A stretch of DNA of 43,220 nucleotides from positions 1-43,220 of IMG/VR virus record IMGVR_UViG_3300050014_000338; one strand, 5' to 3'. The notes under the pieces are model-generated. The model saw only the letters and a program-made list of their open reading frames with translations, was not told where the DNA came from and ran no database searches. Below are positions 2,488-29,780 of the stretch, in pieces (position 1 is the stretch's first letter; every line of letters begins with the position of its first letter). This DNA comes from a virus. The position numbers and the translations under genes were made by a program.

Positions 2488-2501
2488 GTGCAATATCACA
2501 T
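2488..2501 (+). promoter_or_regulatory. Weak member of the GTGCAA-N2-TTGCAC site family
   Basis: GTGCAATATCACAT matches the strong form GTGCAATATCGCAC at 12 of 14 positions and lies in the 49-bp gap between genes 1819-2472 and 2522-2725. It is the most diverged and most distant member, so it could be chance. Confidence 0.25.
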
Positions 2502-2521
2502 CAGAAGCGGTACGATAATCC

Positions 2522-2725
2522 ATGGACAACGGACAGCGTATCGAGATGCAGGAACGGGCGATTGAGTTGCTGGCTAGGGCTCTCACTTCCGACCCAAAGG
2601 GTCAGGCGCTGCTTATCCGCGTGGCGAAGGTAGACGCGTTGGAAGCCATGAACATCTTGCCGATACCCGCGCCGGACTCGTATCCTGTTGGTGGGCACGA
2701 ATCAGCACAGCCGGAGGACTTATGA
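2522..2725 (+). CDS. Small hypothetical protein (67 aa)
   Basis: ATG at 2522, stop at 2723-2725. The N-terminal 45 residues look helical (RIEMQERAIELLARALTSD) and the C-terminal part is Pro-rich and flexible. No Shine-Dalgarno stands out, and a weak copy of the dispersed palindrome lies 20 bases upstream. No family recognised. The even spacing and codon use resemble its neighbours, so it is probably real. Confidence 0.45.
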   Translation: MDNGQRIEMQERAIELLARALTSDPKGQALLIRVAKVDALEAMNILPIPAPDSYPVGGHESAQPEDL

Positions 2726-2734
2726 CCCGTAGGG

Positions 2735-2944
2735 GTGTATGAACCAATTCTTTTAACTAAGGCAGAGGCTAAAGTGGTGACGCTGCTATTTGAAGGAATG
2801 GAAGCCGATCAGATTTCAAAAGTACTAGGTGTTTTCCGGAAGACGATCAATGATCACCTTCGGCGCGTCTACCGCAAGGCAGGAGTCAAATCAGCGCTCG
2901 GCTTAGTTGCAATGGCTTACAGAAACGGGGGGTATTTATGGTGA
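2735..2944 (+). CDS. LuxR/GerE-type helix-turn-helix protein (69 aa)
   Basis: Stand-alone GerE-like DNA-binding domain. The pattern LTKAEAKVVTLLFEGMEADQ, then ISKVLGVFRKTINDHLRRVY, then a final helix with KSALGLVAMAY follows the LuxR-type four-helix order, including the recognition helix (TINDHLRRVYRKAG). There is no sensor domain. The start is taken as GTG 2735. An alternative ATG at 2722 in another frame, with a better GGAGG, would make only a six-residue peptide. It lies directly upstream of the lysis cassette, so a role in switching on lysis or late genes is possible but is only inferred from position. Confidence 0.7.
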   Translation: MYEPILLTKAEAKVVTLLFEGMEADQISKVLGVFRKTINDHLRRVYRKAGVKSALGLVAMAYRNGGYLW

Positions 2945-3102
2945 TGGATAGAATTGGAACCGTGCTCGTGCTCCTGGCGCTCTGTACGTTTGCATGTACA
3001 TCCTGCGTGGGCAGTTTTACCCAGCACACGTACACGTTTCAGATCACCGCGACATCGGGCGGCGTGATCCACTCCACGCCAATTCAATTGACAATTCAGT
3101 GA
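2938..3102 (+). CDS. Small putative lipoprotein (54 aa)
   Basis: ATG at 2938 follows a run of G at about 5 bases and overlaps the end of the HTH gene; TGA at 3100-3102. The N-terminus is a charged residue followed by a hydrophobic stretch (VLVLLALCTFACTSCVG) with Cys residues suited to a lipobox, then a Thr/Ser-rich mature part. Small outer-membrane lipoproteins in lysis cassettes can act as outer spanins; that is a family-level possibility, not shown here. Confidence 0.5.
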   Translation: MVMDRIGTVLVLLALCTFACTSCVGSFTQHTYTFQITATSGGVIHSTPIQLTIQ

Positions 3103-3118
3103 TGGCGCTGGAGGATTT

Positions 3119-3510: not shown

Positions 3511-3522
3511 AGGAGAAACACA

Positions 3523-4788: not shown

Positions 4789-5001
4789 ATGAGAACTTAT
4801 ACCAGCGGCGAAGTGATGAAGTTCCTGCGGGAGAAGGCAGAGTCTAAACGGGGTGCGCAGAAGCAACTCGCATTGGAACTCGGCATCTCGCCGCAATACC
4901 TCAACGATATTCTTTCCGATAATCGCAGGTTGACGACTGAAGTAGCGGCGGCAGTTGGTTTCCGCAAACAGCCGGACTCGTATCTGCGAGTGAAGGAGTA
5001 G
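4789..5001 (+). CDS. Small XRE/Cro-type HTH regulator (70 aa)
   Basis: The HTH spans residues about 20-45: QKQLALELGISPQYLNDILS, with the usual Ala-Leu...Gly-Ile/Val-Ser pattern and recognition helix PQYLNDILS. The N-terminal helix (EVMKFLREKAESKR) and a short tail complete a compact Cro-like domain without dimerisation or protease domain. There is no Shine-Dalgarno upstream and the promoter predicts a leaderless mRNA, as for some phage repressors. It is the first gene of the early region after a terminator, so control of the early operon and of itself is likely. Confidence 0.7.
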   Translation: MRTYTSGEVMKFLREKAESKRGAQKQLALELGISPQYLNDILSDNRRLTTEVAAAVGFRKQPDSYLRVKE

Positions 5002-5003
5002 CC

Positions 5004-5355: not shown

Positions 5356-6381
5356 ATGGACACAGAAGCAATCGAAGGGACGCCGATACCGGCCACCCAG
5401 CCTGCAGGATTCGTCCTGCTGGCTCCCGGAACCATCGCCTCTGATTACGCGCTTCAGAGCCTCAACAAGGCGCTCGGGCAGGCGCAGGACGAGTTCGAGG
5501 ATGCCGTGAAAAACGCGGTAAACACCTACGGAGGATGGAAGTACACTCCGCTTGAGACGCTCATCAAGGCAGTGCGGCCTTCCCTCACCAAGTACCATCT
5601 GACCATTTCGCAGTTCCCGGTCACCGATCTGGAAGAGAAGACCATCACCGTCTATACCCGAATCGTTCACTGGGATTCTGGCGAGTGGATGCAGAACGCG
5701 CTTGAACTGCCGGGAGAATTGGCGCTCGGCAAGGATGGCGCTCCGAAGTTCAATCAGCAAACTATCGGCGGCTCTCAGACCTACGGCCAGAAGTACGCAT
5801 ACAAGGCCATCGCGGGCATCCCTGACGGGGAAGAGATGATCGACTCGACCGACGAAAAGGGCGATCTTCCCTCTCGTCAGAAGAAGCAGTCGGACGTTCG
5901 GCAGGCGGCACAGCAGAGGGCTGGTGCAATATCGCACCAGGAAAACGCTCCCAGGGCGACCACAACGCAGCAGTCGGCCCAACAGGCCCACCAACGTGCA
6001 GCGAGCGCACCTGAGGCAGCACGGCCCCAAGCAGCACAGCTTAAATTCATCCCCCCGAACGGTCTGACGGCTGTAATCAAGGGAGTGAAGGAGATTGAGG
6101 CGCTTGCAGCCAAACCAGCCAACGGCGACATTCCCGCAATGAAGGCCGTACGGGGCAGGCTGATTGTCTCATTCCTCGGCCAGCATAACGGAGTGGAAGA
6201 GGCGTCGTGCTTCGATACGAAGTTTTGGCCTGCACTGAAAGAGTCTGTAGGTTTGGAGTGTCATTTCCAGATCGCAGAGAAGGACGCCAACGGCAAGCAC
6301 TACATCAATATCGAGGATTTGATTTATGTTGCAGGGGAAGAGTACGTGGACGGCAAACCCGTACAAGGAGAGCAGCAATGA
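5356..6381 (+). CDS. erf: ERF-family single-strand annealing recombinase
   Basis: The N-terminal 175 residues match the ERF family of phage ssDNA-annealing proteins: KNAVNTYGGWKYTPLETLIK, then RPSLTKYHLTISQFPV, a beta strand with HWDSGEWM, and the family block GGSQTYGQKYAYKAIAGIPD followed by an acidic tail. Residues about 180-240 are a Gln/Ala-rich linker. The C-terminal 100 residues form a separate domain (AVKGVKEIEALAAK...GLECHFQIAEKD), probably for nucleic-acid or protein contacts. Strong Shine-Dalgarno (GAAGGAG) before ATG 5356. ERF proteins pair complementary strands during phage recombination and genome circularisation. The linker carries one of the dispersed palindromes. Confidence 0.85.
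   Translation: MDTEAIEGTPIPATQPAGFVLLAPGTIASDYALQSLNKALGQAQDEFEDAVKNAVNTYGGWKYTPLETLIKAVRPSLTKYHLTISQFPVTDLEEKTITVYTRIVHWDSGEWMQNALELPGELALGKDGAPKFNQQTIGGSQTYGQKYAYKAIAGIPDGEEMIDSTDEKGDLPSRQKKQSDVRQAAQQRAGAISHQENAPRATTTQQSAQQAHQRAASAPEAARPQAAQLKFIPPNGLTAVIKGVKEIEALAAKPANGDIPAMKAVRGRLIVSFLGQHNGVEEASCFDTKFWPALKESVGLECHFQIAEKDANGKHYINIEDLIYVAGEEYVDGKPVQGEQQ
5924..5937 (+). promoter_or_regulatory. Dispersed palindromic site within erf
   Basis: GTGCAATATCGCAC, with flanks giving 7-bp arms CTGGTGC / GCACCAG. It is a member of the GTGCAA-N2-TTGCAC family but lies inside the Gln-rich linker codons of the ERF gene, unlike most members, which sit at gene boundaries. Confidence 0.45.
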
Positions 6382-8069: not shown

Positions 8070-8633
8070 ATGCCATTTCCGGCCACACAAGAGGCGTTGT
8101 TTGCAGCCGGATATTCGTATGCCCGTTGGGAGCGATGTCCGGTCTGCACCCTCGATGTGGAGATTTGGAATTCACCGGGGAAGAGAACTATAGCCATGGA
8201 GCCAATGCCGTCTTTCAAAACCCCGGCAATTCGACACTATGAGCAGTGCAATCTTGCACCAAAACAGGAGGAGCAAAGTGGAAGAGGAAACGTACAAGAC
8301 GCTGCGGGACGAGATAGCAATCGCCGCGATGGTGTGCATGCTACAGGAGGACAAGTACCCTCCCAGACAGACGGCGCGAGAGGCCTACGCGATGGCGGAT
8401 TGGATGCTCACGGCTCGGGAATCAAGCTCTACGGAGTCACCGACAAGAACATGATCGCGGTAGGATGGCTGGACGGAACGCTGAAAGTCCAGTTCCGCTA
8501 CGGTAAGTACCACTATGCCAACGTCGCGGAGGATGTGTTTCAGAAGATCAGGAACAACCCATTTCCGAATTCTCTTTTTGTTAAGCTCGTGAAGAATCAC
8601 CCTGAACTCTATCCCTGCACCAAAATGGAGTAG
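8070..8633 (+). CDS. Zinc-finger plus KTSC fusion ORF enclosing an overlapping gene
   Basis: 187 residues in one open frame. The N-terminal 60 residues carry a Cys/His motif, CPVC...W.SPGK...MEPM...H...C, that is also present in the next gene (8636), so the two are paralogous. Residues about 128-187 are a KTSC-like domain (MIAVGWLDGTLKVQFRYGKY, HYANV, ending NHPELYP). The middle (about 65-125) is Gly/Arg/Asp-rich and looks like the shadow of another gene in the +1 frame at 8278-8454. An internal ATG (8451) overlapping that gene's stop could start the KTSC part as its own protein. So this may be one fusion protein or two genes whose frames happen to join. Confidence 0.5.
   Translation: MPFPATQEALFAAGYSYARWERCPVCTLDVEIWNSPGKRTIAMEPMPSFKTPAIRHYEQCNLAPKQEEQSGRGNVQDAAGRDSNRRDGVHATGGQVPSQTDGARGLRDGGLDAHGSGIKLYGVTDKNMIAVGWLDGTLKVQFRYGKYHYANVAEDVFQKIRNNPFPNSLFVKLVKNHPELYPCTKME
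8246..8259 (+). promoter_or_regulatory. Dispersed palindromic site before 8278 gene
   Basis: GTGCAATCTTGCAC is a perfect 6+2+6 palindrome ending 19 bases before the GTG of the 8278 gene and just upstream of its AGGAGGAG ribosome site. It would fit an operator or transcript-control site for the 8278-8848 genes. Confidence 0.6.
8278..8454 (+). CDS. Small protein encoded inside another open frame (58 aa)
   Basis: A near-ideal AGGAGGAGCAAA precedes GTG 8278. The product (EEETYKTLRDEIAIAAMVCM ... REAYAMADWMLTARES) is an amphipathic helical protein of a type common in phages, usually next to replication genes. Its codon pattern is more convincing than that of the enclosing frame (8070-8633) over the same bases. 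The stop TGA 8452-8454 overlaps an ATG at 8451 in the enclosing frame. Function unknown. Confidence 0.6.
   Translation: MEEETYKTLRDEIAIAAMVCMLQEDKYPPRQTAREAYAMADWMLTARESSSTESPTRT
8451..8633 (+). other. Possible independent start for the KTSC part
   Basis: ATG 8451 is in frame with 8070-8633 and overlaps the stop of the 8278 gene (ATGA), the coupling seen throughout this operon. Translation from here would give a 60-residue stand-alone KTSC domain. Whether it is used in addition to, or instead of, the long 8070 product cannot be decided from the sequence. Confidence 0.4.
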
Positions 8634-10652: not shown

Positions 10653-12115
10653 GCGAAATAATCAACATGCCTCACAACTCTATTATGGGAGCGGAGATGA
10701 TTCTTCCAGATCAGCGGAATTGGGGAGACTATGAACGTTTCCTGTTTAGTAAGTCTCAGATTGGTGGCATGTCTGGATTCGATCCGATATGGATACCCGA
10801 CTGGCTATTTCCCTTTCAGCAACAGTTGACCGAATGGGCAATCCGCAAGGGACGCGGTGGACTGTTCGAGGATTGCGGTTTGGGGAAGACGCCGCAGTTT
10901 TTGGTGTGGGCTGAGAACGTAGCCCGGCACGAGAATGGCCGGGTGCTAGTACTTTCTCCGCTTGCCGTGTCATTCCAGACTTTGGCTCAGTCTGAGCATT
11001 TCGGCATTGAGTCTTGCGTATCGCGCAATGGCCAGTTGCCGCTTGGGAAGAACATCATCCTTACGAACTACGAGAAGCTGCACCTGTTCAACCCCTCCGA
11101 CTTCGTTGGCGTGGTGTGCGACGAGTCGGGCATCCTCAAGAACTACGATGGGACCTTGCGCGGAAGAATCACCGAGTTCATGAAGAAACTGAAATACCGG
11201 CTGCTCTGCACTGCCACCGCAGCGCCGAACGATTACATCGAACTCGGCACAAGCAGCGAGGCCCTGGGGGAACTTGGGTACGTAGACATGCTGACAAGGT
11301 TCTTTAAGAACGATCAGCACACGATAAAACCGATGGTCTATCGGAATCATGGAAACAATTTTCAGCAGTTAGATGAGGCGGCTAAGTGGCGATTCAAAGG
11401 ACATGCTCGCATTCCGTTTATGCGGTGGGTGTGTTCGTGGGCTCGAGCTATACGCCGTCCATCGGACATCGGCTTTGAAGATGGGCCGTTCAGACTTCCT
11501 CCACTGATCGAACAGGACCATCTGGTGATTGCTGATAGCCTCCCGTCTGGCATGCTGTTTCCCCTGCCCGCCGTGGGACTGACAGAACAGCGTGACGAGC
11601 GGCGGCGAACTATTCAAGAGCGATGCGAGAAGGCGGCGGCGTTGGCGAATGAGCAAGAGTCTTCTGTCATATGGTGCCACTTGAATCCAGAGGGAGATTT
11701 GATCAAAAAGCTACTCGATGGGGAGCAAATATCAGGGAGGGACTCGGAAGATGCCAAGGAAGAGAAGCTGCTGGCATTTTCCAAGGGCCAGATCAAGCGC
11801 ATCGTGACCAAAAGCTCTATCGCGGGCTGGGGCATGAACTGGCAGCACTGCTCACACACCGTAACCTTTCCATCGCATAGTTTCGAGCAGTACTACCAGT
11901 CAGTCCGCCGCTTCTGGCGCTTTGGGCAAGTCAACCCCGTAACCGTGGACATCGTAACCACGGAAGGCGAGCAGTCCGTATTGCAGAACCTCCAGCGCAA
12001 AGCCAAGGCCGCAGATGAACTATTCTCTTCTTTGGTCGAGCAGATGAATCAAGCAATCGCCATCGACCGCAGCGTTACATTCACCGAGAAACAGGAGAAC
12101 CCATCATGGCTGTGA
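10649..12115 (+). CDS. SNF2-like SF2 helicase paired with DNA methyltransferase
   Basis: 488 residues from ATG 10649, chosen because it overlaps the Lar-like stop (ATGA). Motif I is DCGLGKT (75-81), typical of SNF2 proteins, followed by VLVLSPLAV (motif Ia), CDESG (157-161, motif II), TATAAPN (about 188-194, motif III) and, late, SVRRFWRFGQ, the Q/R-rich motif VI. In many phages a protein of this type lies directly upstream of a beta-class DNA methyltransferase, as here (10-bp overlap with 12106). The pair may help the enzyme travel on or open DNA, or act as a phage replication helicase. Confidence 0.8.
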   Translation: MSEIINMPHNSIMGAEMILPDQRNWGDYERFLFSKSQIGGMSGFDPIWIPDWLFPFQQQLTEWAIRKGRGGLFEDCGLGKTPQFLVWAENVARHENGRVLVLSPLAVSFQTLAQSEHFGIESCVSRNGQLPLGKNIILTNYEKLHLFNPSDFVGVVCDESGILKNYDGTLRGRITEFMKKLKYRLLCTATAAPNDYIELGTSSEALGELGYVDMLTRFFKNDQHTIKPMVYRNHGNNFQQLDEAAKWRFKGHARIPFMRWVCSWARAIRRPSDIGFEDGPFRLPPLIEQDHLVIADSLPSGMLFPLPAVGLTEQRDERRRTIQERCEKAAALANEQESSVIWCHLNPEGDLIKKLLDGEQISGRDSEDAKEEKLLAFSKGQIKRIVTKSSIAGWGMNWQHCSHTVTFPSHSFEQYYQSVRRFWRFGQVNPVTVDIVTTEGEQSVLQNLQRKAKAADELFSSLVEQMNQAIAIDRSVTFTEKQENPSWL

Positions 12116-13110
12116 AGGAACAGGAAATCACCAAACAGTACGCCATATACAACGGAGATTGCATCGAGGTCATGAAGTCCCTACCTGCCGGACGTATTCA
12201 CCTTTCCGTATATTCTCCTCCGTTCGGAGGACTCTATTGCTACAGTTCTAGCGAGAAAGACCTGTCGAACTGTAAGGACTACGACCAGTTCTTTGAGCAT
12301 TACACCTTTGTTGTGCGCGAACTCTTTCGCCTGACGGTTCCCGGTCGCATGACAGCGGTGCATTGCATGGACGTGCCGACAGGTAACTGTGGGACCGATG
12401 GTCTGATTGACTTCCCCGGCGACATCATCCGACTCCATGAGCGGGAAGGATGGAAGTACATTGCCCGGTACTCGATATGGAAAGAGCCTCTGGCGGTGCG
12501 CAACCGGACAATGGCAAAGAACCTTGCCCACAAGACCATCGTGGATGACTCCAGCCGTTGCTCTGTGGCGTCTGCTGACTACCTGCTAGTCTTTCGCCGC
12601 AAAGGAGAGAACCCTGCCCCCATAGCTCATCCTACGGGGCTGCAATCGTACGCTGGCGAACGGGAGATGCCCGCCGAGTTGCTGCGGTATAAAAACTGGA
12701 AGGGAAATCAGATCGAAAATAGGTACTCGCATTGGATCTGGCGGCAGTACGCTTCCGCCTTCTGGGACGACATTCGGATAGGTAGGGTTCTCCCGTTCAT
12801 CCAAGCTCGCGACGAAGAAGACGAAAAGCATGTTCATCCACTCCAGCTTGACGTAATCGAGCGAGTTCTGACGCTTTGGTCTAACCCTGGAGAAACGGTT
12901 ATGACACCTTTTATGGGGGTTGGTTCGGAGGTCTACGTTTCGGTTGCGCAAAGTCGCCGCGCTATCGGCGTCGAACTCAAGCCAAGTTACTACTCCCAAG
13001 CAAAGCGGAATCTTGAAAGCGGAGTTGCGGATAACTGGACCGACACAACTGGGCAAATGAATCTGCTTGACGAGATTGACGAGGAAGATGACGGCGAGTC
13101 AGATAGCTAA
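12106..13110 (+). CDS. Beta-class DNA N4/N6 methyltransferase
   Basis: 334 residues. Catalytic motif IV SPPF (37-40, in YSPPFGG) precedes the AdoMet-binding motif I TPFMGVGSE (about 267-275). This order defines the beta class. SPPF rather than DPPY points to N4-cytosine more than N6-adenine, but this is not certain. A further AIGVELKPSYY (motif II/III region) follows. The C-terminal tail is strongly acidic. No restriction nuclease gene is adjacent, so it probably protects phage DNA from host restriction. ATG 12106 lies inside the end of the helicase gene. Confidence 0.85.
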   Translation: MAVKEQEITKQYAIYNGDCIEVMKSLPAGRIHLSVYSPPFGGLYCYSSSEKDLSNCKDYDQFFEHYTFVVRELFRLTVPGRMTAVHCMDVPTGNCGTDGLIDFPGDIIRLHEREGWKYIARYSIWKEPLAVRNRTMAKNLAHKTIVDDSSRCSVASADYLLVFRRKGENPAPIAHPTGLQSYAGEREMPAELLRYKNWKGNQIENRYSHWIWRQYASAFWDDIRIGRVLPFIQARDEEDEKHVHPLQLDVIERVLTLWSNPGETVMTPFMGVGSEVYVSVAQSRRAIGVELKPSYYSQAKRNLESGVADNWTDTTGQMNLLDEIDEEDDGESDS

Positions 13111-13642
13111 ACAACTCCACGGCAAGAAGGCCGGTAAAAGATGGCAATGCCGCTGTCCTACCGGCCTTCACTCCCACGGAGATCGTAACCGGAGCCTGTC
13201 CGTATGGGAATCGGACGACGGCTGGGTGAGGCTGAAATGCTTCACCGGGTGCCAGAGAGACGAGATTCTCGCGGCCATGGGGCTCAAGGTCAGAGACCTG
13301 GCGCTGAACGAGTTCAACCCCAACCCAGAGTGGGAGCAACGGCGATGGGACAAGGACAGGCTCAAGCTCTTGGAGCGCCAGCACGGGCTGGCAATCATGG
13401 CCCAGGCGGTGATACCTGGAGAGCGGAACTACTGGCGAGCGGTGGAGCGAAATATAGCCGTGCGGGGGCGGGCGCTGAGGAGTAAACTTTATCCTGAATA
13501 TGCCGCACAAATCCACCGTAATCAAGTCGCTCAATACCTCATCAAAAAGTATGGCTTCGAGGAGCTATCCAATTGCCTACCCCAAAATCTAGTGCAATCT
13601 TGCATCTCGCCACTCCAGACTTTGACGCCATCCGCGCCATGA
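13088..13642 (+). CDS. Primase-type (CHC2-like) zinc-finger protein
   Basis: 184 residues from ATG 13088; an upstream TTG 13067 is possible. Residues 21-55 hold CRCPTGLHSHGDRNRSLSV and LKCFTGC, the C..C..H...C..C zinc-knuckle arrangement and ..RSLSV.. strand of phage/bacterial primase N-termini. There is no TOPRIM or polymerase domain afterwards. The rest is a charged, Trp-containing region without recognised motifs. It may recruit the host primase or bind DNA at the phage origin. It overlaps the methyltransferase end by 23 bp and the next gene by 70 bp. Confidence 0.65.
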   Translation: MTASQIAKQLHGKKAGKRWQCRCPTGLHSHGDRNRSLSVWESDDGWVRLKCFTGCQRDEILAAMGLKVRDLALNEFNPNPEWEQRRWDKDRLKLLERQHGLAIMAQAVIPGERNYWRAVERNIAVRGRALRSKLYPEYAAQIHRNQVAQYLIKKYGFEELSNCLPQNLVQSCISPLQTLTPSAP

Positions 13643-15205: not shown

Positions 15206-15519
15206 TCCCTAAAGCACTGAGCCCCGGCGAAGAAGCTTTTTGGTTACATTGCCGAGCCGAGAAGTTGGACCCTGTTCGGGAATATCTCTTCCATCCCACG
15301 AGAAAATGGCGTTTTGATTTCGCTTTCATCCCATCAAAAATAGCGGTTGAGGTTGAAGGACGCGGGCGGCATCAGAGCTTTGGTGGTTTCGAGGCTGATG
15401 CTCAAAAGTACAATGCCGCCGCTAAGTTGGGATGGACCGTTCTTCGATATACGCCGGCGATGGTGATGCGCGGAGAAGCGATCAACGATCTGATGGAGAT
15501 GCTAGGTCCCCATGTTTAG
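15202..15519 (+). CDS. PD-(D/E)XK/VSR-like nuclease
   Basis: Start ATG 15202 overlaps the HNH stop (ATGA); a TTG at 15190 is possible but lacks coupling. 105 residues with FHPTRKWRFDFAF...AVEVEGRGRHQSFGGFEADA then KYNAAAKLGWTVLRYTPAMV. This is the D...E-x-E-G core and strand-helix order of DUF559/VSR-like restriction-endonuclease folds. Asp in WRFDFAF and Glu in VEVEG are the likely metal ligands. Phage relatives serve as resolvase-like or recombination nucleases. It is the last gene of the early rightward operon and ends directly at a dispersed palindrome. Confidence 0.7.
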   Translation: MIPKALSPGEEAFWLHCRAEKLDPVREYLFHPTRKWRFDFAFIPSKIAVEVEGRGRHQSFGGFEADAQKYNAAAKLGWTVLRYTPAMVMRGEAINDLMEMLGPHV

Positions 15520-15707
15520 TGCAAGATCGCACCGGGCGGAATAACTACGATCCGATCTCCAGTTGAGTTCTGCTTTTGTAGGGCGCCAGTTCCCTTGGCA
15601 GCCTTGTATATTTGCCTACCCCTCTTGATCGATCGCCAATAACACCCAACACTTTCAGATGTGGCGAAAAACGACTTCTCATTGACTGGATATTTGTTTT
15701 TCTTCAT
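15516..15707 (-). CDS. Possible small leftward gene (63 aa)
   Basis: On the minus strand, AAAGGGAAAT precedes ATG at 15707; the product is basic (MKKNKYPVNEKSFFATSESV ... GRQIYKAAKGTGALQKQN ...) and could be a small DNA-binding protein. It converges on the rightward nuclease gene and its stop overlaps a dispersed palindrome. The composition is plausible, but there is no family match and no clear promoter. Confidence 0.35.
   Translation of the reverse strand: MKKNKYPVNEKSFFATSESVGCYWRSIKRGRQIYKAAKGTGALQKQNSTGDRIVVIPPGAILH
15519..15532 (+). promoter_or_regulatory. Dispersed palindromic site at operon end
   Basis: GTGCAAGATCGCAC starts on the last base of the nuclease gene stop codon. Upstream TTTA extends one arm. 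No promoter or terminator hairpin with a U-run is seen here, so a site at the end of an operon recalls transcription-blocking stoperators of some temperate phages. Confidence 0.6.
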
Positions 15708-17733: not shown

Positions 17734-17747
17734 GTGCAAGATTGCAC
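17734..17747 (-). promoter_or_regulatory. Dispersed palindrome upstream of leftward operon
   Basis: GTGCAAGATTGCAC, perfect 6+2+6, extended by TTTG/TAAA to nearly 22 bp of dyad symmetry (17730-17751). It lies between the excisionase-like gene and the 17696 start, the best placed operator of the set. Confidence 0.65.
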
Positions 17748-17797: not shown

Positions 17798-18082
17798 TTA
17801 TGGGTGCTCTGTGCAGTTAAGGTCCCCGCAGGTTGTACAGGCAAATTTACTAGGCGCATAAGGCCCGTCATTCGATGGCCGCTGTTCTGTGTCCGGCGAG
17901 AATAACCATTCACTTTTGAGTCGTTCCACCTCAGCCCAAGGGATTCGGTAGTCACGTCCTGCAGGACCGCCGAGTCGGTAAGCTTTGACTCTGCCGGCCT
18001 TTATCCAGTTCTTGACCGTGCCGGCGGAGCAGGAGAACTCTTTGGCCACTTGGGGGACGGTATAGTCGCGTTTGTCAGTCAT
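17798..18082 (-). CDS. Excisionase/MerR-like HTH protein (94 aa)
   Basis: ATG 18082 preceded by GGGAGGAG. Residues about 6-50 match the winged HTH_17/excisionase fold: YTVPQVAKEFSCSAGTVKNW, IKAGRVKAYRLGG and DYRIPWAEVERLK, the order helix-turn-helix, wing, closing helix. The C-terminal 35 residues hold a CxxC...C set (CTTCGDLNC) that may bind zinc. Such proteins act as directionality factors or small regulators. There is no integrase gene in the window, so a regulator role is as likely as excision. Confidence 0.65.
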   Translation of the reverse strand: MTDKRDYTVPQVAKEFSCSAGTVKNWIKAGRVKAYRLGGPAGRDYRIPWAEVERLKSEWLFSPDTEQRPSNDGPYAPSKFACTTCGDLNCTEHP

Positions 18083-18746: not shown

Positions 18747-18760
18747 GTGCAAGATCGCAC
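18747..18760 (-). promoter_or_regulatory. Dispersed palindrome upstream of Imm5-like gene
   Basis: GTGCAAGATCGCAC with flanking CTGG/CTAA, 42 bases upstream (minus strand) of the GTG at 18705. A second site of the family lies about 37 bases farther upstream at 18797. Confidence 0.6.
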
Positions 18761-18765: not shown

Positions 18766-18813
18766 TGCCCAGATAACGCGCTGGGCTCGCGGTTTAGTGG
18801 GATATTGCACTAA
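18766..18813 (-). repeat. 48-bp leader repeat, copy 1
   Basis: 44 of 48 bases identical to 19433-19480. Contains hairpin GCCCAG / CTGGGC (18767-18772 with 18781-18786) followed on the plus strand by the palindromic site at 18797. Two of the four differences between the copies are paired with each other in the hairpin (A-T here, G-C in copy 2), which is compensatory. Confidence 0.7.
18797..18810 (-). promoter_or_regulatory. Dispersed palindrome, GGG variant (copy 1)
   Basis: GTGGGATATTGCAC, with outer arms TTTAGTG / CACTAAA perfect over 7 bp. It overlaps the stop of the DUF551-like gene at 18810-18812 and lies upstream of the Imm5-like gene. Confidence 0.55.
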
Positions 18814-19229: not shown

Positions 19230-19420
19230 GCGACCACCACTGTCTTCCCGGCTGCGTACATACCCTTGACGATGCAATCGGCGAGAATGAGCGACTCTTC
19301 CATGTTGAGTTTGCGTGTCCGAACCACATCGCGGATGATATCCCCTCGGCGAACCGACTCGGCATCCTTGTACTTGCGGGCGATCTTCAAAGCCAACTTG
19401 CTCACTTGATTCATTGTCAT
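19226..19420 (-). CDS. Small hypothetical protein (64 aa)
   Basis: ATG 19420 preceded by AGGAGAATGAAAA, the same ribosome-site sequence as at the 19750 gene. The product is basic and helical (VSKLALKIARKYKD, DIIRDVVRTRKLNMEESLIL). A hairpin and a palindromic site lie directly upstream (19433-19480). Function unknown. Confidence 0.55.
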   Translation of the reverse strand: MTMNQVSKLALKIARKYKDAESVRRGDIIRDVVRTRKLNMEESLILADCIVKGMYAAGKTVVVA

Positions 19421-19432
19421 TTTTCATTCTCC

Positions 19433-19480
19433 TGCCCGGATAACGCTCCGGGCTAGCGGTTTAGTGGGATATTGCACTAA
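19433..19480 (-). repeat. 48-bp leader repeat, copy 2
   Basis: Matches 18766-18813 at 44 of 48 bases. On the minus strand the hairpin GCCCGGA / TCCGGGC ends immediately before the AGGAG ribosome site of the 19420 gene, so it lies in the mRNA leader if transcription starts upstream. Confidence 0.7.
19464..19477 (-). promoter_or_regulatory. Dispersed palindrome, GGG variant (copy 2)
   Basis: GTGGGATATTGCAC, identical core to 18797-18810, 44 bases upstream of the 19420 start. Confidence 0.55.
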
Positions 19481-20464: not shown

Positions 20465-20860
20465 ATGCCACACTGTAATCAATGCGAACAGGACTGGGAG
20501 CAGAGGAAGCTAGGCGGTGATCCTGTTCAGTGTCCAAGGTGTCATAGAACGGATTGGCGAGAGCCGAAGAAGGGGAAGAATGGAAAAACCGAAGGAAGGC
20601 TCGTATCTGAGAATGTGGAATTACCTGGCGGCATCTCGCGGTTTCCTCGGAAAGAACAGGCCTGTGTTAGCGGACCGGCAAATCCAGCAAGCGCAGGAAA
20701 TATTAAATCTCCTAATGGACCCAGAGAACAACCTGGATTTGATGCGAAAGCCGTGATGTGCCCCTATACCGAGTACGATCCTGAGACCGGGGAGACGTAT
20801 GGGTGCCTGTTGGCTGAGCATAGTCTGAAAATCAAGCATCGGCGCGGTCCTGCGATTTAG
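20465..20860 (+). CDS. Zinc-finger protein frame enclosing an overlapping gene (131 aa)
   Basis: First gene after the rightward promoter, predicted leaderless. The N-terminus has CNQC...CPRC (residues 4-26), a two-knuckle zinc finger. The C-terminal 35 residues carry another Cys/His set (CPYTEYDPETGETYGCLLAE, then H). The middle is the shadow of a better-looking gene in the +1 frame (20580-20756). An internal ATG (20756) overlaps that gene's stop and could start the C-terminal part separately. This mirrors the 8070-8633 locus. Confidence 0.5.
   Translation: MPHCNQCEQDWEQRKLGGDPVQCPRCHRTDWREPKKGKNGKTEGRLVSENVELPGGISRFPRKEQACVSGPANPASAGNIKSPNGPREQPGFDAKAVMCPYTEYDPETGETYGCLLAEHSLKIKHRRGPAI
20580..20756 (+). 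CDS. Small gene inside the 20465 frame (58 aa)
   Basis: AAGGGGAAGA precedes ATG 20580; the product (MEKPKEGSYLRMWNYLAASR, then DRQIQQAQEILNLLMDPENN) is helical with natural codon choice. The stop TGA overlaps ATG 20756 of the enclosing frame. No family recognised; called because its start signal and composition are better than those of the overlapping frame. Confidence 0.55.
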   Translation: MEKPKEGSYLRMWNYLAASRGFLGKNRPVLADRQIQQAQEILNLLMDPENNLDLMRKP

Positions 20861-20886: not shown

Positions 20887-21141
20887 ATGACGAAACTGAC
20901 TGAGCCGATACAGCGGTACTCATTTCCATCAGCAGAAGGGTATCCCGCTTTCGATATGGTGAGCTACGCCGATCATCTCGCAGCACTCGCCAAAGCGGAA
21001 GCGGAGCTGGACGCGCTCAAGGTGCAGTTGAGCGAGGCTGAATCTATGCTTCGCATCGAGTCTGAGGCAGCGCGGAATTATCAAGCCGAGAACGCATCCC
21101 TGCGGGCGCAGGTAGCGCGGCTGACGGAGCCGGCTTTTTAG
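20887..21141 (+). CDS. Small coiled-coil protein (84 aa)
   Basis: GGGAGG five bases before ATG 20887; a GTG at 20860 in the same frame overlaps the previous stop and is an alternative. A structured N-terminus (IQRYSFPSAEGYPAFDMVSY) is followed by a 50-residue coiled coil (AKAEAELDALKVQLSEAESM ... ASLRAQVARLTE). The type is frequent in phage early operons. A dispersed palindrome begins on the last base of its stop codon. Confidence 0.6.
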   Translation: MTKLTEPIQRYSFPSAEGYPAFDMVSYADHLAALAKAEAELDALKVQLSEAESMLRIESEAARNYQAENASLRAQVARLTEPAF

Positions 21142-21154
21142 TGCAATCTCGCAT
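21141..21154 (+). promoter_or_regulatory. Dispersed palindrome overlapping XRE-gene promoter
   Basis: GTGCAATCTCGCAT, preceded by TTTA. Its right half covers the position of a -35 box at the usual 16-17 base distance from TATTGT (21171-21176), the likely -10 of the 21183 gene. Binding here would repress or activate that regulator. Confidence 0.6.
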
Positions 21155-21182: not shown

Positions 21183-21554
21183 ATGGCGACGGATATCTTC
21201 GACGGCCCTAAACTGAAGTCTTTTCGCAAGCGGGCTCGTCTGACTCAGATGCAAGTGGTTACGATGGCCGGTGTATCAGAGACAACCATCTGCTACCTGG
21301 AGCGCGGCGACCGCAAACCGCAAAGCCGGACCCTCCAAAAACTATTGAACCTGTACGCCACGCGGATTGACTACTGGCGGCAGTTGGCTGCGAGACTCGA
21401 AGGAGAAGTGCATGTCGAAGGAAAAGTCGATCCCCAAGCGTCTGAGTGGAAACGAGGCTCTGGACTCAATCATGGAAGCAATCTACAAACGCCTGTCGGC
21501 TCACGGCCACTTCCACAGCCACAAAGCGTACCAGGGCTACAGCGCAACCGTTAA
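21183..21554 (+). CDS. XRE-family HTH regulator
   Basis: HTH_3 domain at residues about 11-63: LKSFRKRARLTQMQVVTMAG, then VSETTICYLERGDRKPQSRT and LQKLLNLYAT, all hallmark positions. The product is nominally 123 residues, but everything after residue about 77 overlaps the start of the next gene (21412) and looks like its shadow. TATTGT (21171-21176) sits six bases before the ATG with no proper Shine-Dalgarno, so its mRNA is probably leaderless. A dispersed palindrome overlaps the -35 position. It is the best candidate for the factor recognising that palindrome family; inferred, not shown. Confidence 0.7.
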   Translation: MATDIFDGPKLKSFRKRARLTQMQVVTMAGVSETTICYLERGDRKPQSRTLQKLLNLYATRIDYWRQLAARLEGEVHVEGKVDPQASEWKRGSGLNHGSNLQTPVGSRPLPQPQSVPGLQRNR

Positions 21555-23108: not shown

Positions 23109-25241
23109 ATGCTTTCGGAGCACTCCGCCAAGTCGGAGACCGGCCTATGGATTCCCGAATACCACTCCCTTTCCCAGATCGACAGCTTCAACTCCCACTT
23201 CAAGACGCTGGCGGAAAAAGCGGAACGTGCCGACGAAGACGTGGAGTCCGCTCTTGGTCCGGATGAATTGAACTGGATTCAGAATGAGTATGCCATCTGC
23301 GCCTGTGACGACCGCTACTGGATGGAGAGCTATTTCTACATCAATGACGACAGCAAGCTGGTCCGATTCAATGCTCGATTCTCTCAGTCCATGTTGATCG
23401 ACACCTGGGCCGAACGCGAAGAGGCCGGGCTTCCCATTGAGCAACAGATCCTCAAGGCTCGCCAGCAGGGAATCTCGACGCTGGTCGAAGGGGCCATCGC
23501 CAAGAAAGTAAACTTCGGCATCGGCATCAAGGCGGCGGTAGCCTCCTACGATCAGGACGCCTGCGAGCGCATGGGCGGCATGATGGAGCTTGCCTTCAAC
23601 GAGATGCCCTCATGGATGAAGGCCAACCCTACAAGCGACCGCGCCGGGTCACTGAAGGCATTCGCTGCTACCAATACGCGCTTGACCTTGTATTCGGGCA
23701 AGAAGGCTTCAGGTATCGCCCGTGGTGACACTCCGTCAGTCCTTCATATCTCCGAAGTCTCAATCTTCCCTGACGCATCGAACGTGATTGAGAAGTCTCT
23801 GTTTCAGGCCGTCCACCCTTCCCCCAACACGTTCATGATCCTCGAGTCGACGGGCAACGGAAACACGGACTGGTGGGCGCGCACGTGGTACTCCAGCAGG
23901 GACTACTGGGCATCTGGCGGGGCAAGGCTCCAGCCGATATTCTTCCCATTCTTCATCGCCGTCGACTTGTTCCCCACTCCGACGTGGCGCCGCGAGCACC
24001 CCGTACCAAGGGACTGGCAGATGCTCACCGAGACTCGGCAGATGATGGCCAAGGCTGCAGAGTACGTCCACCAGACGCCTTTGATTCGCAAGTACGCGGG
24101 CGACGGTTGGAGGATGCAGGACTTTCAAGCCTACTACTGGGAGCAGGAGTTGAAGGAAGCACGGCGCAAGGGCGAAGAGAATTCGTTCTATCAGGAGCGC
24201 CCGATGGACGACAACGAAGCCCTTCGGCCAAAGAAAGACCTTGTATTCAATCTGATGGAGGTCAAGAAACAGGAGGAGACGCGCTCAGATTACACGGTCT
24301 GGTCAATCATCGGCGAGCAGGTTCAGGAGCGATACTGCCCCGATCCGGTGGACATCGACTACGATGCCGACAGGTTCCGAGTGAGCTATGACGGCAACAT
24401 CACCGACCTTCGCGGGAGGATGGCAAAGACGTTCTGGTGGGAGTTTGTTCCGATCAAGCAGCCTGTTGAGACGGGCATCGACCTGTTCGACGTGGAGCGC
24501 AAGTGCATGATCTACCGCTGGCCGGAAGCTGGGTACACCTACGGAATCGGCGTGGACAACTCAGGCGGAACAGGAAAGGACGGCACCTACCTCAGCGTGA
24601 ACGGGAAAGCGATCTACGGGAATGAGCCCGACTTTCAGGCTGCGTGCTGGTGGTCGAACAAGACTGACCCCTCGCTGGTGCATCCGTACATCATGGCGCT
24701 GGCATCACTCTATGGGTCCGAGATGCCTGATGGAACTCACCCGATTGTGGGCATCGAGCAGGTCTATGGCCTGGGCGACACGCCGCAGATTCAGATGCTT
24801 TCGATGGGCTGGAACAAACGCAACTTCTACCACTTTAGCCGACTGGACGGCATGAACCCCGAGCACGACAAAAAGAAGTCAAAGCGCATGGGCTGGTACA
24901 CGACGGAATGGAGCCGTAACTTCATGCTCTCGCTCTACAAGACGGCCGTAGAGAATCACTGGCGCAAGGTCAATGACCCATTCCTGCTGAAGCACGAGAT
25001 TCCCGCGTTCCAGATCGACAAGACAGAAGGCGGCAAGACGCGGTGGGACCATCAGGACGGCAAGCGGGACGACAGGATCTTCGGAGACGGCATCGCCTAC
25101 TGCATCATGAACGATACGGAAAGCATGACCCGGCGGGTGCTGAACAAGTTTGAGGGCGACGAGGAAGAGATTGAGATTGATTATGGGTATCCAGTGGGCA
25201 TAAACTCAACACTTGAAGAGATGATGGGAGCGGAACTGTGA
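23109..25241 (+). CDS. terL: Large terminase subunit (ATPase-nuclease)
   Basis: 710 residues from ATG 23109. Walker A variant KARQQGIST (about 116-124) and Walker B VLHISEVS (about 211-218, acidic pair SE) mark the DNA-translocation ATPase. FMILESTGNGN matches the following coupling region. GIGVDNSGGTGKDGTYL (second half) is the first acidic motif of the RNase H-like nuclease, followed by VGIEQVYG and a DDRIFGDGIAYC end. It packages phage DNA into the prohead through the portal. The frame continues upstream of ATG without stop to ATT 23073, which has a better GGAGAGG, so the true start may be non-standard. The last 51 bases are repeated downstream. Confidence 0.9.
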   Translation: MLSEHSAKSETGLWIPEYHSLSQIDSFNSHFKTLAEKAERADEDVESALGPDELNWIQNEYAICACDDRYWMESYFYINDDSKLVRFNARFSQSMLIDTWAEREEAGLPIEQQILKARQQGISTLVEGAIAKKVNFGIGIKAAVASYDQDACERMGGMMELAFNEMPSWMKANPTSDRAGSLKAFAATNTRLTLYSGKKASGIARGDTPSVLHISEVSIFPDASNVIEKSLFQAVHPSPNTFMILESTGNGNTDWWARTWYSSRDYWASGGARLQPIFFPFFIAVDLFPTPTWRREHPVPRDWQMLTETRQMMAKAAEYVHQTPLIRKYAGDGWRMQDFQAYYWEQELKEARRKGEENSFYQERPMDDNEALRPKKDLVFNLMEVKKQEETRSDYTVWSIIGEQVQERYCPDPVDIDYDADRFRVSYDGNITDLRGRMAKTFWWEFVPIKQPVETGIDLFDVERKCMIYRWPEAGYTYGIGVDNSGGTGKDGTYLSVNGKAIYGNEPDFQAACWWSNKTDPSLVHPYIMALASLYGSEMPDGTHPIVGIEQVYGLGDTPQIQMLSMGWNKRNFYHFSRLDGMNPEHDKKKSKRMGWYTTEWSRNFMLSLYKTAVENHWRKVNDPFLLKHEIPAFQIDKTEGGKTRWDHQDGKRDDRIFGDGIAYCIMNDTESMTRRVLNKFEGDEEEIEIDYGYPVGINSTLEEMMGAEL
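25191..25241 (+). repeat. 51-bp direct repeat, copy 1 (end of terL)
   Basis: Identical over 51 bases to 25501-25551. It covers the last codons of terL, the TGA, and the ribosome site (GGGAG) plus GTG start used by the next gene. Confidence 0.95.
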
Positions 25242-25513: not shown

Positions 25514-25551
25514 ACTCAACACTTGAAGAGATGATGGGAGCGGAACTGTGA
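25501..25551 (+). repeat. 51-bp direct repeat, copy 2
   Basis: Perfect copy of 25191-25241, starting 310 bp after it. It contains the stop of the inserted gene and the GTG (25548) of the Mom-like gene. Recombination between copies would remove the insert exactly and join terL to the Mom-like gene. Confidence 0.95.
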
Positions 25552-26114
25552 ACGACTACCCTAAATCCGATTTCTCGATTTATTCGGTATCTCCAGCGAG
25601 TCGAACAGAGGCGGAGCCGCTCGTGCGGGCGCATTATTTGAAACGTTGGCCAGGTGTCGTAACCGCCACCTTGGGAATGTGGAAAGGCCCGTTCTTGGTT
25701 GGCGTAATCGTGTTCGCGCTTCCACCCCGCGAAACAGCGAAACGATACCGGGTGCATGTCGCGTGGGAGTTGGCAAGGTTGTACATCATGGACTCCGAGC
25801 CGTTTAACTCTGAGACGTGGTTTATGGCGAAGGCTATCAAGTGGGTGCGCGGCACATTCCCGGCAGTTGAAATGCTAGTGTCTTATGCCGACCCATCGGC
25901 GGGACACGCGGGCATCATCTACAAGGCTGCAAACTGGCGGCAAGATGGCCGTACCGATCAAGAACGGAAGACGCCGCGCTTCGACTATGGAGTAGGTGGT
26001 AAAGTGTACTCCCGGCGATCTCATGTCCCAAATGGAGCAACAGTGGACAGGATACCGAGAGTTTCAAAGTTTCGATTCACCTATCGACTCAGGAAAGAAA
26101 CGGTGGCATCATGA
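25548..26114 (+). CDS. Mom-like DNA adenine modification protein
   Basis: 188 residues, GTG start in repeat copy 2. The motif chain matches phage Mu Mom and relatives: HYLKRWPG..., LGMWKGPFLVGVIVFALPP, then VAWELARLYIMDSEPFNSET, followed by LVSYADPSAGHAGIIYKAAN. ELxRL, S-x-ADP and G..GIIYKAANW are the most telling. Mom, a GNAT-fold enzyme, converts adenines in phage DNA to a carbamoylmethyl form that blocks many restriction enzymes. Location beside the terminase would let DNA be modified before packaging. No Com-like translational activator was recognised next to it. Confidence 0.75.
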   Translation: MNDYPKSDFSIYSVSPASRTEAEPLVRAHYLKRWPGVVTATLGMWKGPFLVGVIVFALPPRETAKRYRVHVAWELARLYIMDSEPFNSETWFMAKAIKWVRGTFPAVEMLVSYADPSAGHAGIIYKAANWRQDGRTDQERKTPRFDYGVGGKVYSRRSHVPNGATVDRIPRVSKFRFTYRLRKETVAS

Positions 26115-26569: not shown

Positions 26570-26854
26570 ATGAGACTGAGAATTCTTGACATCAACTGCC
26601 GGTGGTTCTGGTTTACTTTGTTCTTTCGCGTAGACCACAGTCCTAATACTGGCTACCACATTGAATCCAGCCTCTACGAATATCAACGGTGGTCTGGTCC
26701 GTGGTTTCACTTCTGGATGTGGGAGTCTCTGCCGGATATGAGGCCGCAAGTGGCTCTCAAGCCGCGCAGTGAAGGGATAGCTACACTTGCGCAGGCAATG
26801 ACGAATCCAGAACTTAAGGTAGGCACGAAGTCGCGATTCGAGGATGTGAACTGA
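26570..26854 (+). CDS. Small Trp-rich hypothetical protein (94 aa)
   Basis: ATG 26570 follows the previous stop by one codon; the stop shares a base with the portal start. The N-terminal 60 residues are rich in Trp/Phe/Tyr (WFWFTLFFRVDHSP, WSGPWFHFWMWESLP), the rest polar. Too aromatic for a typical membrane helix; perhaps a small beta domain. No family recognised. Confidence 0.5.
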   Translation: MRLRILDINCRWFWFTLFFRVDHSPNTGYHIESSLYEYQRWSGPWFHFWMWESLPDMRPQVALKPRSEGIATLAQAMTNPELKVGTKSRFEDVN

Positions 26855-28983
26855 TGGCTGAGCGAGACGAGATAAATTGGCAGTGCCCCGATTTTGAGTC
26901 TCCCGATGCAACCAAGCTCGGGTTTCTCAAGCGTTGCATCTCGCAAGGCATCGCGTGGCAGCAGGAGAACTGCAACACGTCCGACATGCAGCGGGCGATG
27001 GACATTCTCGCGGGCAAGACGGGCGGGAAAGTCTCGTCGAAGTGGGCCAAGTTCACCACGGGCGACCTGAAGCGTGGCATCTTGGAAATCGTCGAAACGC
27101 TCTCCGACATCCGCCCCTACTGGGGTTACTCGACGGACAACAAAGCCTTCCTCGAAGAAGCAAACATGATGAGCCGAGTGGCGAAGGCAATCTACCTGGA
27201 GTCCTTCGTCGACCGCGCCATCAAGGATGCGCTCCAGTTCGCCGCGGTGTCGGGGGCCGGGTTCATCTATCCCTTCTATTCGCGGTCCATGTTCGGCGCC
27301 GGCGACGGTGAGTTCGTGTTCATGGCGCTGGGGCAGCCCGACGTGCTCCCGATCCAGCTTGGACGCAGCAAGGACTACCAGAACGCCTACATCGTCACGC
27401 TGGCCATCCCGATGGGCATTGCTGAGGCTCATGCAAGGTTCCCTGAGTTCCAGCAGTTCTTGAAGCCGTTCTCGAAGAAAAGGTACGGTCGCACTAAGGG
27501 CGGCGAAGACATCAGAAGGAGCGATACGAGCCGCTGGCGCTTTCATAACATTGAGGGGCAACTCGAAAGCTATACCGACGTGTTTTACACCTACGTTCTG
27601 GACCTGAGAGTCAACTACGGCGAGGTTGACGAAAAAGGCGACCCGATTCTCGGCGAAGACGGCAACCTCATCGGCAAAGAGTTAGACATGGGCCAAGTGG
27701 GAACAAGCTGGTACTACAAAGTTCCCTATGTCGGCCAGTCAATCACGCGCTTTGAGGGCGGCGCAAGCGTTACGCGGCCGGCTACGGAGGATGATTGCCG
27801 AGTGTATCCTCAACGACGGCTGCTGATCCATTGTGACGGCGCTTTGATGTACGATGGCCCAGCATTCGACTGGCACAGCATGGTTCCCCTGGTGCCCTTC
27901 TATCTCGACGAATGGGCATGGGAGCCGACCGGATATTCCCTGTTCAACGGTACGGCGGCAACACAGGATGCGATTGATGACCTGATGCGATCGATCTACC
28001 GGGTAGCGATGGCTCGCGCAATGCCCGGAAAGGTCTACAACATCGACATCACCACTGGCGAGAAGGCCGGCAAGCTCACCTCGCGGCAAGCGGAAGGGCT
28101 TGATCCGTTGAGCCCGGACATTACCTGGGGCATCGACGGAGACATCAAGGAGCCCGTCTTAAAGCCTCCAATGCCGGAATGGTGCTACAACGTGCCCGAG
28201 TGGGTGATGAAGGTCGTAGAGTTCCTTCAGGCGTCCATCCTTCGCCAGTTGGGCCATGACCAAATCAAAGCGCTTGAGAAGCTGCGCGGCAACATCTCCG
28301 ACCCAGAGAAACTGCTCGACGCAGAAGGCCCCACGGTCATGGGCACATCGCGGTCGATGGAGCGTGGATTCAGAGACCTGGCGGAGATGCTTAAGTTCCT
28401 TGTGATCCAGTACATGCCGGTGCGGACGCTCATTGACTATCTTGGCACGGACGGCATTCCAGCTACGGTGTTCGATTATTCCCCGGATATGGTGATTCCT
28501 TCGCACATGCCGGGAGAGCAGACGGTCGATCCGATGGGCCAGCCCGTTGCTTCCAGCGTGGAGACGTTGACCCGGGCCAAGACGTTCGCGCGCAATCTGC
28601 GGACGTTCATGACACCGCATTCGATGCACTACATCGCCCAGGCCAAGCAGAGGCTCGACACGCTAGCGTTGCTCGGCAAGGGTGTGCCGGTTGACCCTGA
28701 GACGATTGCGAACACGTTTGATCTTCCGAACTGGGGCAGCATCGACGGGTCGACGATCAAGGAGAAGGTTCTCAACTGGGCCAAAGAGCAGGTTACCCAG
28801 AAGGCACAGATCGCCAAGCTCGAAAAGGCGGAGGGTCTTGTTCCGCCAGAGGATGCCGGAGGGAAGCCGGGACCGAAGCCCGGTCAGGCTGGCGCGGGTA
28901 GGCCCAACACCAACAAGAAACCCGCCGCAATTGCTCAGAAGGGCACTGCTGGCGGCGGAAGAGTAGTACGGAAAACGAGTTAG
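26854..28983 (+). CDS. Portal protein
   Basis: 709 residues, similar in size to portals of P22-like and other short-tailed phages. The pattern includes an N-terminal helical segment, KFTTGDLKRGILEIVETLSD, IRPYWGYSTDN, the wing region with FDWHSMVPLVPFYLDEWAWE, GYSLFNGTAATQDAIDDLMR, and the long stem helix region, ending in a Gly/Pro-rich basic tail. Portals form the dodecameric channel at one head vertex through which DNA enters and leaves. Position after the terminase genes and before the scaffold and capsid genes agrees. Confidence 0.85.
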   Translation: MAERDEINWQCPDFESPDATKLGFLKRCISQGIAWQQENCNTSDMQRAMDILAGKTGGKVSSKWAKFTTGDLKRGILEIVETLSDIRPYWGYSTDNKAFLEEANMMSRVAKAIYLESFVDRAIKDALQFAAVSGAGFIYPFYSRSMFGAGDGEFVFMALGQPDVLPIQLGRSKDYQNAYIVTLAIPMGIAEAHARFPEFQQFLKPFSKKRYGRTKGGEDIRRSDTSRWRFHNIEGQLESYTDVFYTYVLDLRVNYGEVDEKGDPILGEDGNLIGKELDMGQVGTSWYYKVPYVGQSITRFEGGASVTRPATEDDCRVYPQRRLLIHCDGALMYDGPAFDWHSMVPLVPFYLDEWAWEPTGYSLFNGTAATQDAIDDLMRSIYRVAMARAMPGKVYNIDITTGEKAGKLTSRQAEGLDPLSPDITWGIDGDIKEPVLKPPMPEWCYNVPEWVMKVVEFLQASILRQLGHDQIKALEKLRGNISDPEKLLDAEGPTVMGTSRSMERGFRDLAEMLKFLVIQYMPVRTLIDYLGTDGIPATVFDYSPDMVIPSHMPGEQTVDPMGQPVASSVETLTRAKTFARNLRTFMTPHSMHYIAQAKQRLDTLALLGKGVPVDPETIANTFDLPNWGSIDGSTIKEKVLNWAKEQVTQKAQIAKLEKAEGLVPPEDAGGKPGPKPGQAGAGRPNTNKKPAAIAQKGTAGGGRVVRKTS

Positions 28984-28990
28984 GAGAATC

Positions 28991-29236
28991 ATGGACCCCA
29001 AAACAAAAAGCGTTCTAACGGATGAGACAGCATTCAAACCAGACACGGAAACTGTGGAGGGATGGAACTCTCTACTTCGCGAAACTCTGGACTTCATTCA
29101 CGAAGAGGGCCAGTCAGGAACACTCACGGCGCACTTCCGGCCCGGTGGTGTGATGACGGCATTGGTGTTCAAGGAAACAACCACGATTCCGCAGGCGCAA
29201 AGGGCGCTGCTTTCGGATAACAGCCAACCCGAGTAG
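28991..29236 (+). CDS. Small hypothetical protein (81 aa)
   Basis: GGAGAATC before ATG 28991. Polar N-terminus, a helix (EGWNSLLRETLDFIHEEGQS) and a two-strand end (TLTAHFRPGGVMTALVFKET). Located between the portal and the 29295 gene. No family recognised; may be a minor head protein. Confidence 0.5.
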   Translation: MDPKTKSVLTDETAFKPDTETVEGWNSLLRETLDFIHEEGQSGTLTAHFRPGGVMTALVFKETTTIPQAQRALLSDNSQPE

Positions 29237-29294
29237 TGAGCAAAATTGCTATCCGGAGAATCTATTCTGGGAGTAGGATAATCTCGAGGCGCTC

Positions 29295-29762
29295 ATGGAC
29301 CACAAAGAGAAAGCAATTCTGAATCGCCTATTGCGGGAAGCCGAGGACAACGCCCGCGAAATCTCCAAGGTCCTCCATTTCGTTCGCGAGATTCTCCGCG
29401 AACTTCAACCGCAACTCCCACAAATCACTGTTTTTTCGGAGATTACAATGCTGCCTACCACTGGTGGAAACACCCAAATCTTTACCGGCACGTTCGTACC
29501 AGCCGGTTCCGTTCCCCCCACCGACGCGGTTTACGCCGTCACATCGAACGATCCTGCAGTCAGTCCCACAGTGGACGCGACCGGCCTGATCGTAACCGGC
29601 GCGCTTCCTGTCGGATGGGTGGAGAGCACCACAACTCCCTTGGCGTACACCCGCACGGCGTCCAGCGCAAGCAATACCTCTTGGACGTTGAGCGACATCA
29701 TCACTCCTTCGGCGCCTCCGGTTGGGTTCCCCTCCAGCACGACCTTCGTCCAAACCACTTAA
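29295..29762 (+). CDS. Hypothetical structural protein, coiled coil plus beta domain
   Basis: 155 residues. The N-terminal 45 form an amphipathic helix (KEKAILNRLLREAEDNAREI). The rest is a Thr/Ser/Pro-rich, Ig-like strand sequence (TGTFVPAGSVPPTDAVYAVT, VDATGLIVTGAL). Helix-plus-Ig architecture is usual for phage accessory or decoration proteins. Last gene before a terminator. GAGG lies about six bases before ATG 29295. Confidence 0.55.
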   Translation: MDHKEKAILNRLLREAEDNAREISKVLHFVREILRELQPQLPQITVFSEITMLPTTGGNTQIFTGTFVPAGSVPPTDAVYAVTSNDPAVSPTVDATGLIVTGALPVGWVESTTTPLAYTRTASSASNTSWTLSDIITPSAPPVGFPSSTTFVQTT

Positions 29763-29766
29763 CTCG

Positions 29767-29780
29767 ATGCGACATTGCAC
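29767..29780 (-). promoter_or_regulatory. Dispersed palindrome before the packaging terminator
   Basis: ATGCGACATTGCAC (minus strand GTGCAATGTCGCAT), followed by TAAA. It lies between the 29295 gene stop and the terminator stem, again at an operon end, as at 15519. Confidence 0.5.

Follow-up and report, generated by a model that had tools for sequence, protein, structure and literature searches.

What are the short palindromes that recur across this podovirus-like genome for, and which protein reads them? The window analysed here is a whole virus record of 43,220 bp (G000), a fragment of such a genome. Judged by terminase and portal, its nearest matches within the phage collection searched are Tunturi 1 and 2 (28-30% identity), podoviruses of Tunturiibacter (Acidobacteriota) (PMC11924767), and the terminase of an Acidobacteria MAG contig is identical to that of the window in the best segment. 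The window also encodes a Mom-like DNA modification protein (25548-26114; phrog_1384, 2.5e-30) and an N6/N4 DNA methylase (12106-13110). In the related phage G008, the terminase ORF (L038:7998-10943) has 981 residues against the usual ~710, and the portal matches of this entry, with which L006/L007 are grouped for the same observation, span 2.9 kb against the usual 2.1 kb; inteins or introns are possible in both genes. Small proteins that match the Acb2/Tad1 hairpin domain (PF24729), one in G013 (L027:5709-5921, E 2e-12) and one in Tunturi 1 (L177:11234-11449, E 2e-11), suggest that Acidobacteriota phages encode counters to CBASS or Thoeris defence.

The window contains 11 dispersed palindromic sites of 14-20 bases with the consensus TTRGTGCRATATYGCACYAA (Table 1), every one of which had been correctly located in the preliminary description. 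In a leave-one-out matrix analysis all 11 score 17.5-29.5 bits, with the best non-site in the whole window at 6.7-8.2, and stand far above the expectation from the shuffled window, about 0.25 matches at 12 bits or more. The site at 2488, at first called weak, is a true member, because this matrix separates all 11 sites from the rest of the window. A refined RTGSRANNTTGCAC scan gives 12 matches at 10 places and its reversed control none, while a plain GTGCAANNTTGCAC scan with up to three mismatches shows no enrichment (25 matches against 19.9 expected) because that setting is too loose. It also holds that gene junctions harbour eight or nine of the sites; the site at 13592 covers a gene start and two others are intragenic. 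The absence of sites from 30-43 kb is true of the window and no general rule, because the window is a fragment, the sister contig G003 has a further site past the window's right end, and relatives carry conserved sites within late structural genes.

Table 1. Putative operators, candidate binding proteins and marker genes of the window.
Feature	Position	Strand	Placement or basis	Matrix score (bits)
Putative operator GTGCAATATCACAT	2488..2501		between genes 1819-2472 and 2522-2725	17.5 (best non-site 7.3)
Putative operator GTGCAATATCGCAC	5924..5937		within Erf-like recombinase gene	26.1
Putative operator GTGCAATCTTGCAC, perfect	8246..8259		within gene 8070-8633	23.5
Putative operator GTGCAATCTTGCAT	13592..13605		over candidate regulator gene start	19.5
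Putative operator GTGCAAGATCGCAC	15519..15532		shares TAG stop of gene 15202-15519, between convergent genes	24.4
Putative operator GTGCAAGATTGCAC, perfect	17734..17747		38 bp upstream of minus-strand gene 17520-17696	29.5
Putative operator GTGCAAGATCGCAC	18747..18760		42 bp upstream of minus-strand gene 18088-18705	23.5
Putative operator GTGGGATATTGCAC	18797..18810		at stop codon of gene 18810-19427, adjoins stem-loop element	23.9
Putative operator GTGGGATATTGCAC	19464..19477		37 bp upstream of minus-strand gene 18810-19427, adjoins stem-loop	23.9
Putative operator GTGCAATCTCGCAT	21141..21154		shares TAG stop of gene 20887-21141, upstream of Xre gene	26.7
Putative operator ATGCGACATTGCAC	29767..29780		between gene 29295-29762 and terminator-like hairpin	20.5
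Candidate cognate regulator, 218 aa	13573..14229	+	operator at gene start, tree split, model
HTH_3 protein, disfavoured	4789..5001	+	proposed earlier as binder
HTH_17 (excisionase-like) protein, secondary candidate	17798..18082	-	adjoins operator
Xre-type HTH protein, disfavoured	21183..21554	+	Pfam HTH_31/HTH_3
Terminase	23109-25241
Portal	26854-28983
Major head protein	31229-32452

The sites are conserved in related phages. A matrix built from the window alone, with a cut-off of 12 bits, finds them at 10 and 13 places in two diverged relatives, G002 and G013, and at 2-3 in G011 and G012, where shuffled sequences give at most 0.5; the siblings G004, G005, G008, G009 and G014 have none. Consensus scans and a terminase search added further site-bearing contigs (G026, G032/G039, G060, G061, G062, G064, G065, G067, G068, G069, G048/G051 and the MAG contig L101). 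Many sites occupy the identical place in orthologous genes of 35-75% residue identity. The operator position at 13592 is the most conserved of the family, that at 5924 recurs in G013 and G032, and G013 has one site (37741) similarly located within its homologue of gene 8070-8633 (39-40% identity) and another (30175) ahead of its homologue of gene 18088-18705, as at 18747. The site at 17734 directly follows the HTH_17 gene, and that at 34927 of G002 is similarly placed. The two GTGGGATATTGCAC sites have a conserved neighbour, CCGGGCTAGCGGTTTA, and a stem-loop, a combination that G048, G061 and G062 share with little change and that gives the impression of a regulatory cassette exchanged between phages. 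Gene 18088-18705, directly behind an operator, encodes a repetitive, alanine-rich protein of unknown function (phrog_18326), whose homologues are confined to G011, G013, G064 and G068.

The intragenic sites offer a way to separate constraint on the DNA from constraint on the protein. The peptide EVQYR is encoded as GTG CAA TAT CGC, which spells the operator, in all five site-bearing phages compared and in none of four site-less relatives, where the codons are GTC or GTT, CAG or CAA, TAC, and CGC or CGA. In the adjoining gene a site is kept at the same aligned place in two reading frames, yielding either DWCKIAL or DAILHL, and the tail gene peptide (S/A)CN[IL]AQL is spelled with the operator in site-bearing phages only. 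These codon patterns indicate that selection at intragenic sites is on the DNA and not on the protein.

Three versions of the site can be distinguished. Class A, GTGCRA-N2-TYGCAC, with the site form GTGCAATATTGCAC, has 10, 11 and 13 copies in G000, G002 and G013; the same halves with a 3-base spacer occur in G012 (5) and G069 (3); and class B, GTCCRA-N2-TYGGAC (GTCCAANNTTGGAC), with the site form GTCCAATATTGGAC, occurs in Tunturi 1 (11) and G053 (7). The classes are swapped in place: at the start of the gene family to which 13573-14229 belongs, class-A phages carry GTGCAATATYGCAT, G053 GTCCAAATTTGGAC and G012 GTGCGAGAATCGCAC, and in the Erf gene the G012 site at the position of 5924 is GTGCAAGAATCGCAC, likewise with the longer spacer. 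Among the papers listed by a literature search for the motif strings, none contains any of the three 14-base cores, the matches shown being to a generic 9-mer. Palindrome discovery, run with expectations for each motif since a version allowing two mismatches was swamped by composition, gave other dispersed families as well. G056 (IMGVR_UViG_3300045003_000043) has six copies of a different palindrome, TATGACANNNTGTCATA, within one mismatch (0.01 expected), some of them near contig ends, and G068 (IMGVR_UViG_3300036881_000024) has, beside its GTGYAATATTRCAC sites, 12 relaxed copies of a second family, CCTGCGANNNNTCGCAGG (0.37 expected).

Among the proteins considered, the product of gene 13573-14229 is the likeliest regulator. 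Its homologues in class-A phages have an operator within the first ~20 codons (G000, G002, G013, G068, L186, L188, L190 and L191, of which the four L loci were newly found by protein search alone), and G053 and G012 carry their own class, B and 3-base-spacer respectively, at the same gene start. Weaker copies stand there in L193 and G060, and Tunturi 1 and G011 have no site at this position. The search for related loci used an alignment of five class-A sequences as query, and the full family alignment holds 13. On the family tree class A is split from all others (support 100/99), so that one change accounts for the label; on the terminase tree the label needs three changes, class-A phages falling in two terminase lineages. 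G000 and G008 have close terminases, yet the class-A 13573 protein and the sites are found in G000 only. The family is also present in three phages with no recognised sites (G004, G008 and G070), and in G065, which has three sites, no homologue was detected.

The 13573 protein is predicted to consist entirely of helices, with a helix-turn-helix near residues 85-108 (pLDDT 85). In the family alignment most class-A members have S/T-W-x-Y at the second helix of this motif, where both class-B members have S-R-S-[ST]-x-F, and the protein of the 3-base-spacer phage G012 has an insertion just before that helix; this apparent correspondence with operator class draws on a small number of sequences and was recognised post hoc. 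The protein has no PHROG or Pfam assignment and belongs to no recognised DNA-binding family. A fold search with the model gave nothing significant, the best-looking hits being Spo0J and Noc chains (E ~6), and profile comparison with the ParB-like proteins of the relatives found no similarity.

We considered whether another phage protein might bind the sites, be it the HTH_17, Xre or ParB-like protein or an unrecognised early protein linked to the candidate. The last of these is conceivable because linkage to the 13573 gene is not broken, so that a neighbouring early gene could encode the binder. HTH_17 genes adjoin a site in five genomes (G000, G002, G013, G068 and MAG101), the Xre gene follows the site at 21141, and a ParB-HTH protein stands directly after a site in G002. 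However, the HTH_17 helix varies under a constant motif, and the Xre protein, one of two binders proposed earlier, was rejected as repressor since its recognition helix does not follow site presence: GVSETTICYLE is identical in the site-bearing G000, G002 and MAG101 and in the site-less G008, and differs in the site-bearing G048. The other earlier proposal, the HTH_3 protein, fell away, as it is found only in the near-identical contig G001. ParB-HTH proteins (PF17762) occur only in G002 (L018:14136-14909), G011 (L031:5309-6124), G068 (L145:14882-15664) and the site-less G008 (L038:992-1771), with a weak one in the site-less G014, and none in G000, G003 or G013; the relatives' copies are 72-76% identical to that of G002, and no ParA was found in G002, G068 or G008. 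The ParB-like protein was rejected on this partial distribution and its lack of profile similarity to the 13573 candidate. A Zn-ribbon protein (20465-20860), of no recognised family, was also set aside, being widespread in site-bearing phages but present in site-less ones too. On balance, we regard a different phage-encoded binder as rather unlikely. A host-encoded binder, with site classes that reflect different hosts, would explain why the motif is common to phages of very different gene content (G026, G013 and G000) and why none of the phage genes is present in every contig. It is nevertheless improbable: only 4 of 297 Acidobacteriota genomes contain the strict class-A core and 2 of 247 that of the class-B sister motif, in neither case in excess over chance, which led us to reject a host (LexA-like) regulon for both motifs, and operator class follows the tree of the 13573 protein.

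The remaining alternatives concern what the sites do. In asymmetric sites the perfect half, GTGCAA, lies upstream in the direction of transcription in 34 of 43 cases (p=0.00017), counting orthologous positions separately; because such positions are not independent, repeats were removed by hand, which leaves a ratio of 21:5 (p=0.0025). Tunturi 1 has mixed orientations with no bias. This orientation and the placement at gene junctions fit transcription control, and together with the failure to find a ParA in the records searched they make it quite improbable that the sites are centromere-like, nucleoid-structuring or DNA-protection elements, even though they are spread over early and late genes and some relatives encode orphan ParB-like proteins. 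Least probable of all is a role of the palindromes at the RNA level, as transcript hairpins that signal, for instance, antitermination or processing. They are mostly transcribed, terminator-like hairpins adjoin some of them (29767, G013 20762 and G067 7822), and a change from class A to class B would be a compensatory pair; against this, variation among the sites leaves 47 mismatches in the stem of the sense strand and fewer, 30, in that of the antisense strand, with 24 sites pairing better as antisense and 9 as sense.

With moderate confidence, we favour a reading in which the sites are operators of a phage regulator, most plausibly the 13573 protein, and operators and regulator have diversified together. 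We suggest that a phage-encoded, sequence-specific protein binds the palindromes of 14-20 bp at junctions between genes, over gene starts and at some conserved intragenic places, most likely repressing transcription or blocking elongation and so adjusting many transcription units in concert. The 13573 protein would also control its own gene through the operator over its start codon, and regulator and operators appear to have co-diversified into class A, its 3-base-spacer version and class B. In this phage of a soil bacterium and in its relatives, the spread of about ten copies over the genome, some of them within genes, and the use of different versions by different relatives point to an undescribed phage-wide system of gene control. 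We would give even chances to the fuller proposal that an undescribed regulator family, that of 13573, silences or blocks transcription across the genomes of integrase-less Acidobacteriota podoviruses through one network, its specificity co-diversifying and its intragenic operators kept by synonymous selection.

How does such a system compare with known ones? The operators of phages of the lambda, 434 and P22 type are dyads of ~14 bp bound by HTH dimers. The sites described here share that size and symmetry, but those operators are few and clustered at one switch, whereas here some 10-13 are distributed genome-wide and the Xre-type protein does not follow site class. In palindromic sites and global reach the system resembles that of KorB on plasmid RK2, a single global repressor acting at multiple palindromic OB operators; KorB is a CTP-binding clamp of the ParB family and the OB oligonucleotide reads GGGATATTTTAGCGGCTAAAAGGA (PMC11790492). 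The site sequence differs from OB, however, and neither G000 nor G013 yielded a ParB HTH domain.

Most detailed knowledge of operators scattered over a whole genome comes from Cluster A actinobacteriophages, and the likeness to the L5 stoperators that was drawn at the outset stands in part. L5 and its Cluster A relatives have more than 10 repressor sites across the genome, in short intergenic gaps and mostly oriented with transcription; one such site stands at the repressor gene, and the motif classes shift together with the repressor (PMC6550527, PMC9283540). The present phages likewise have many dispersed, conserved sites (11 in the window, 9-13 in G002 and G013) at gene ends, gene starts and operons, mostly in one orientation relative to transcription, and motif classes that co-vary with the candidate regulator; the operator at the start of the candidate's gene would be the counterpart of an autoregulatory site if that protein is the regulator. 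In contrast, each L5 stoperator is an asymmetric 13-mer recognised by a monomer, the repressor gp71, with an HTH and a Stoperator domain (PMC9283540), whereas the sites here have a palindromic 14-bp core, are often intragenic, are unlike L5 sites in sequence, as first noted, and are paired with a candidate protein that has no PHROG or Pfam assignment.

L5-type phages are moreover temperate and have an integrase or parABS (PMC6550527, PMC9283540). In the site-bearing podovirus records searched, whose contigs are possibly incomplete, we found no tyrosine integrase (PF00589) or ParA, and cultured Tunturi 1, which carries the sister motif, is reported to be lytic (PMC11924767); the earlier idea of lysogenic silencing accordingly gains no support from the genes found, and the question arises why a phage with no detected integrase needs dispersed operators. 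Because two defining features fail, the asymmetric site and the integrase or parABS, we do not file the system as a member of the L5 type. It would instead be a separate, palindromic system in phages of another bacterial phylum, with a named candidate protein and natural classes set apart by a single base or by the length of the spacer, testable now because cultured Tunturi 1 carries one operator class. Beside the Cluster A stoperators, it would offer a second system in which to see how phages co-evolve a repressor with at least 10 sites simultaneously.
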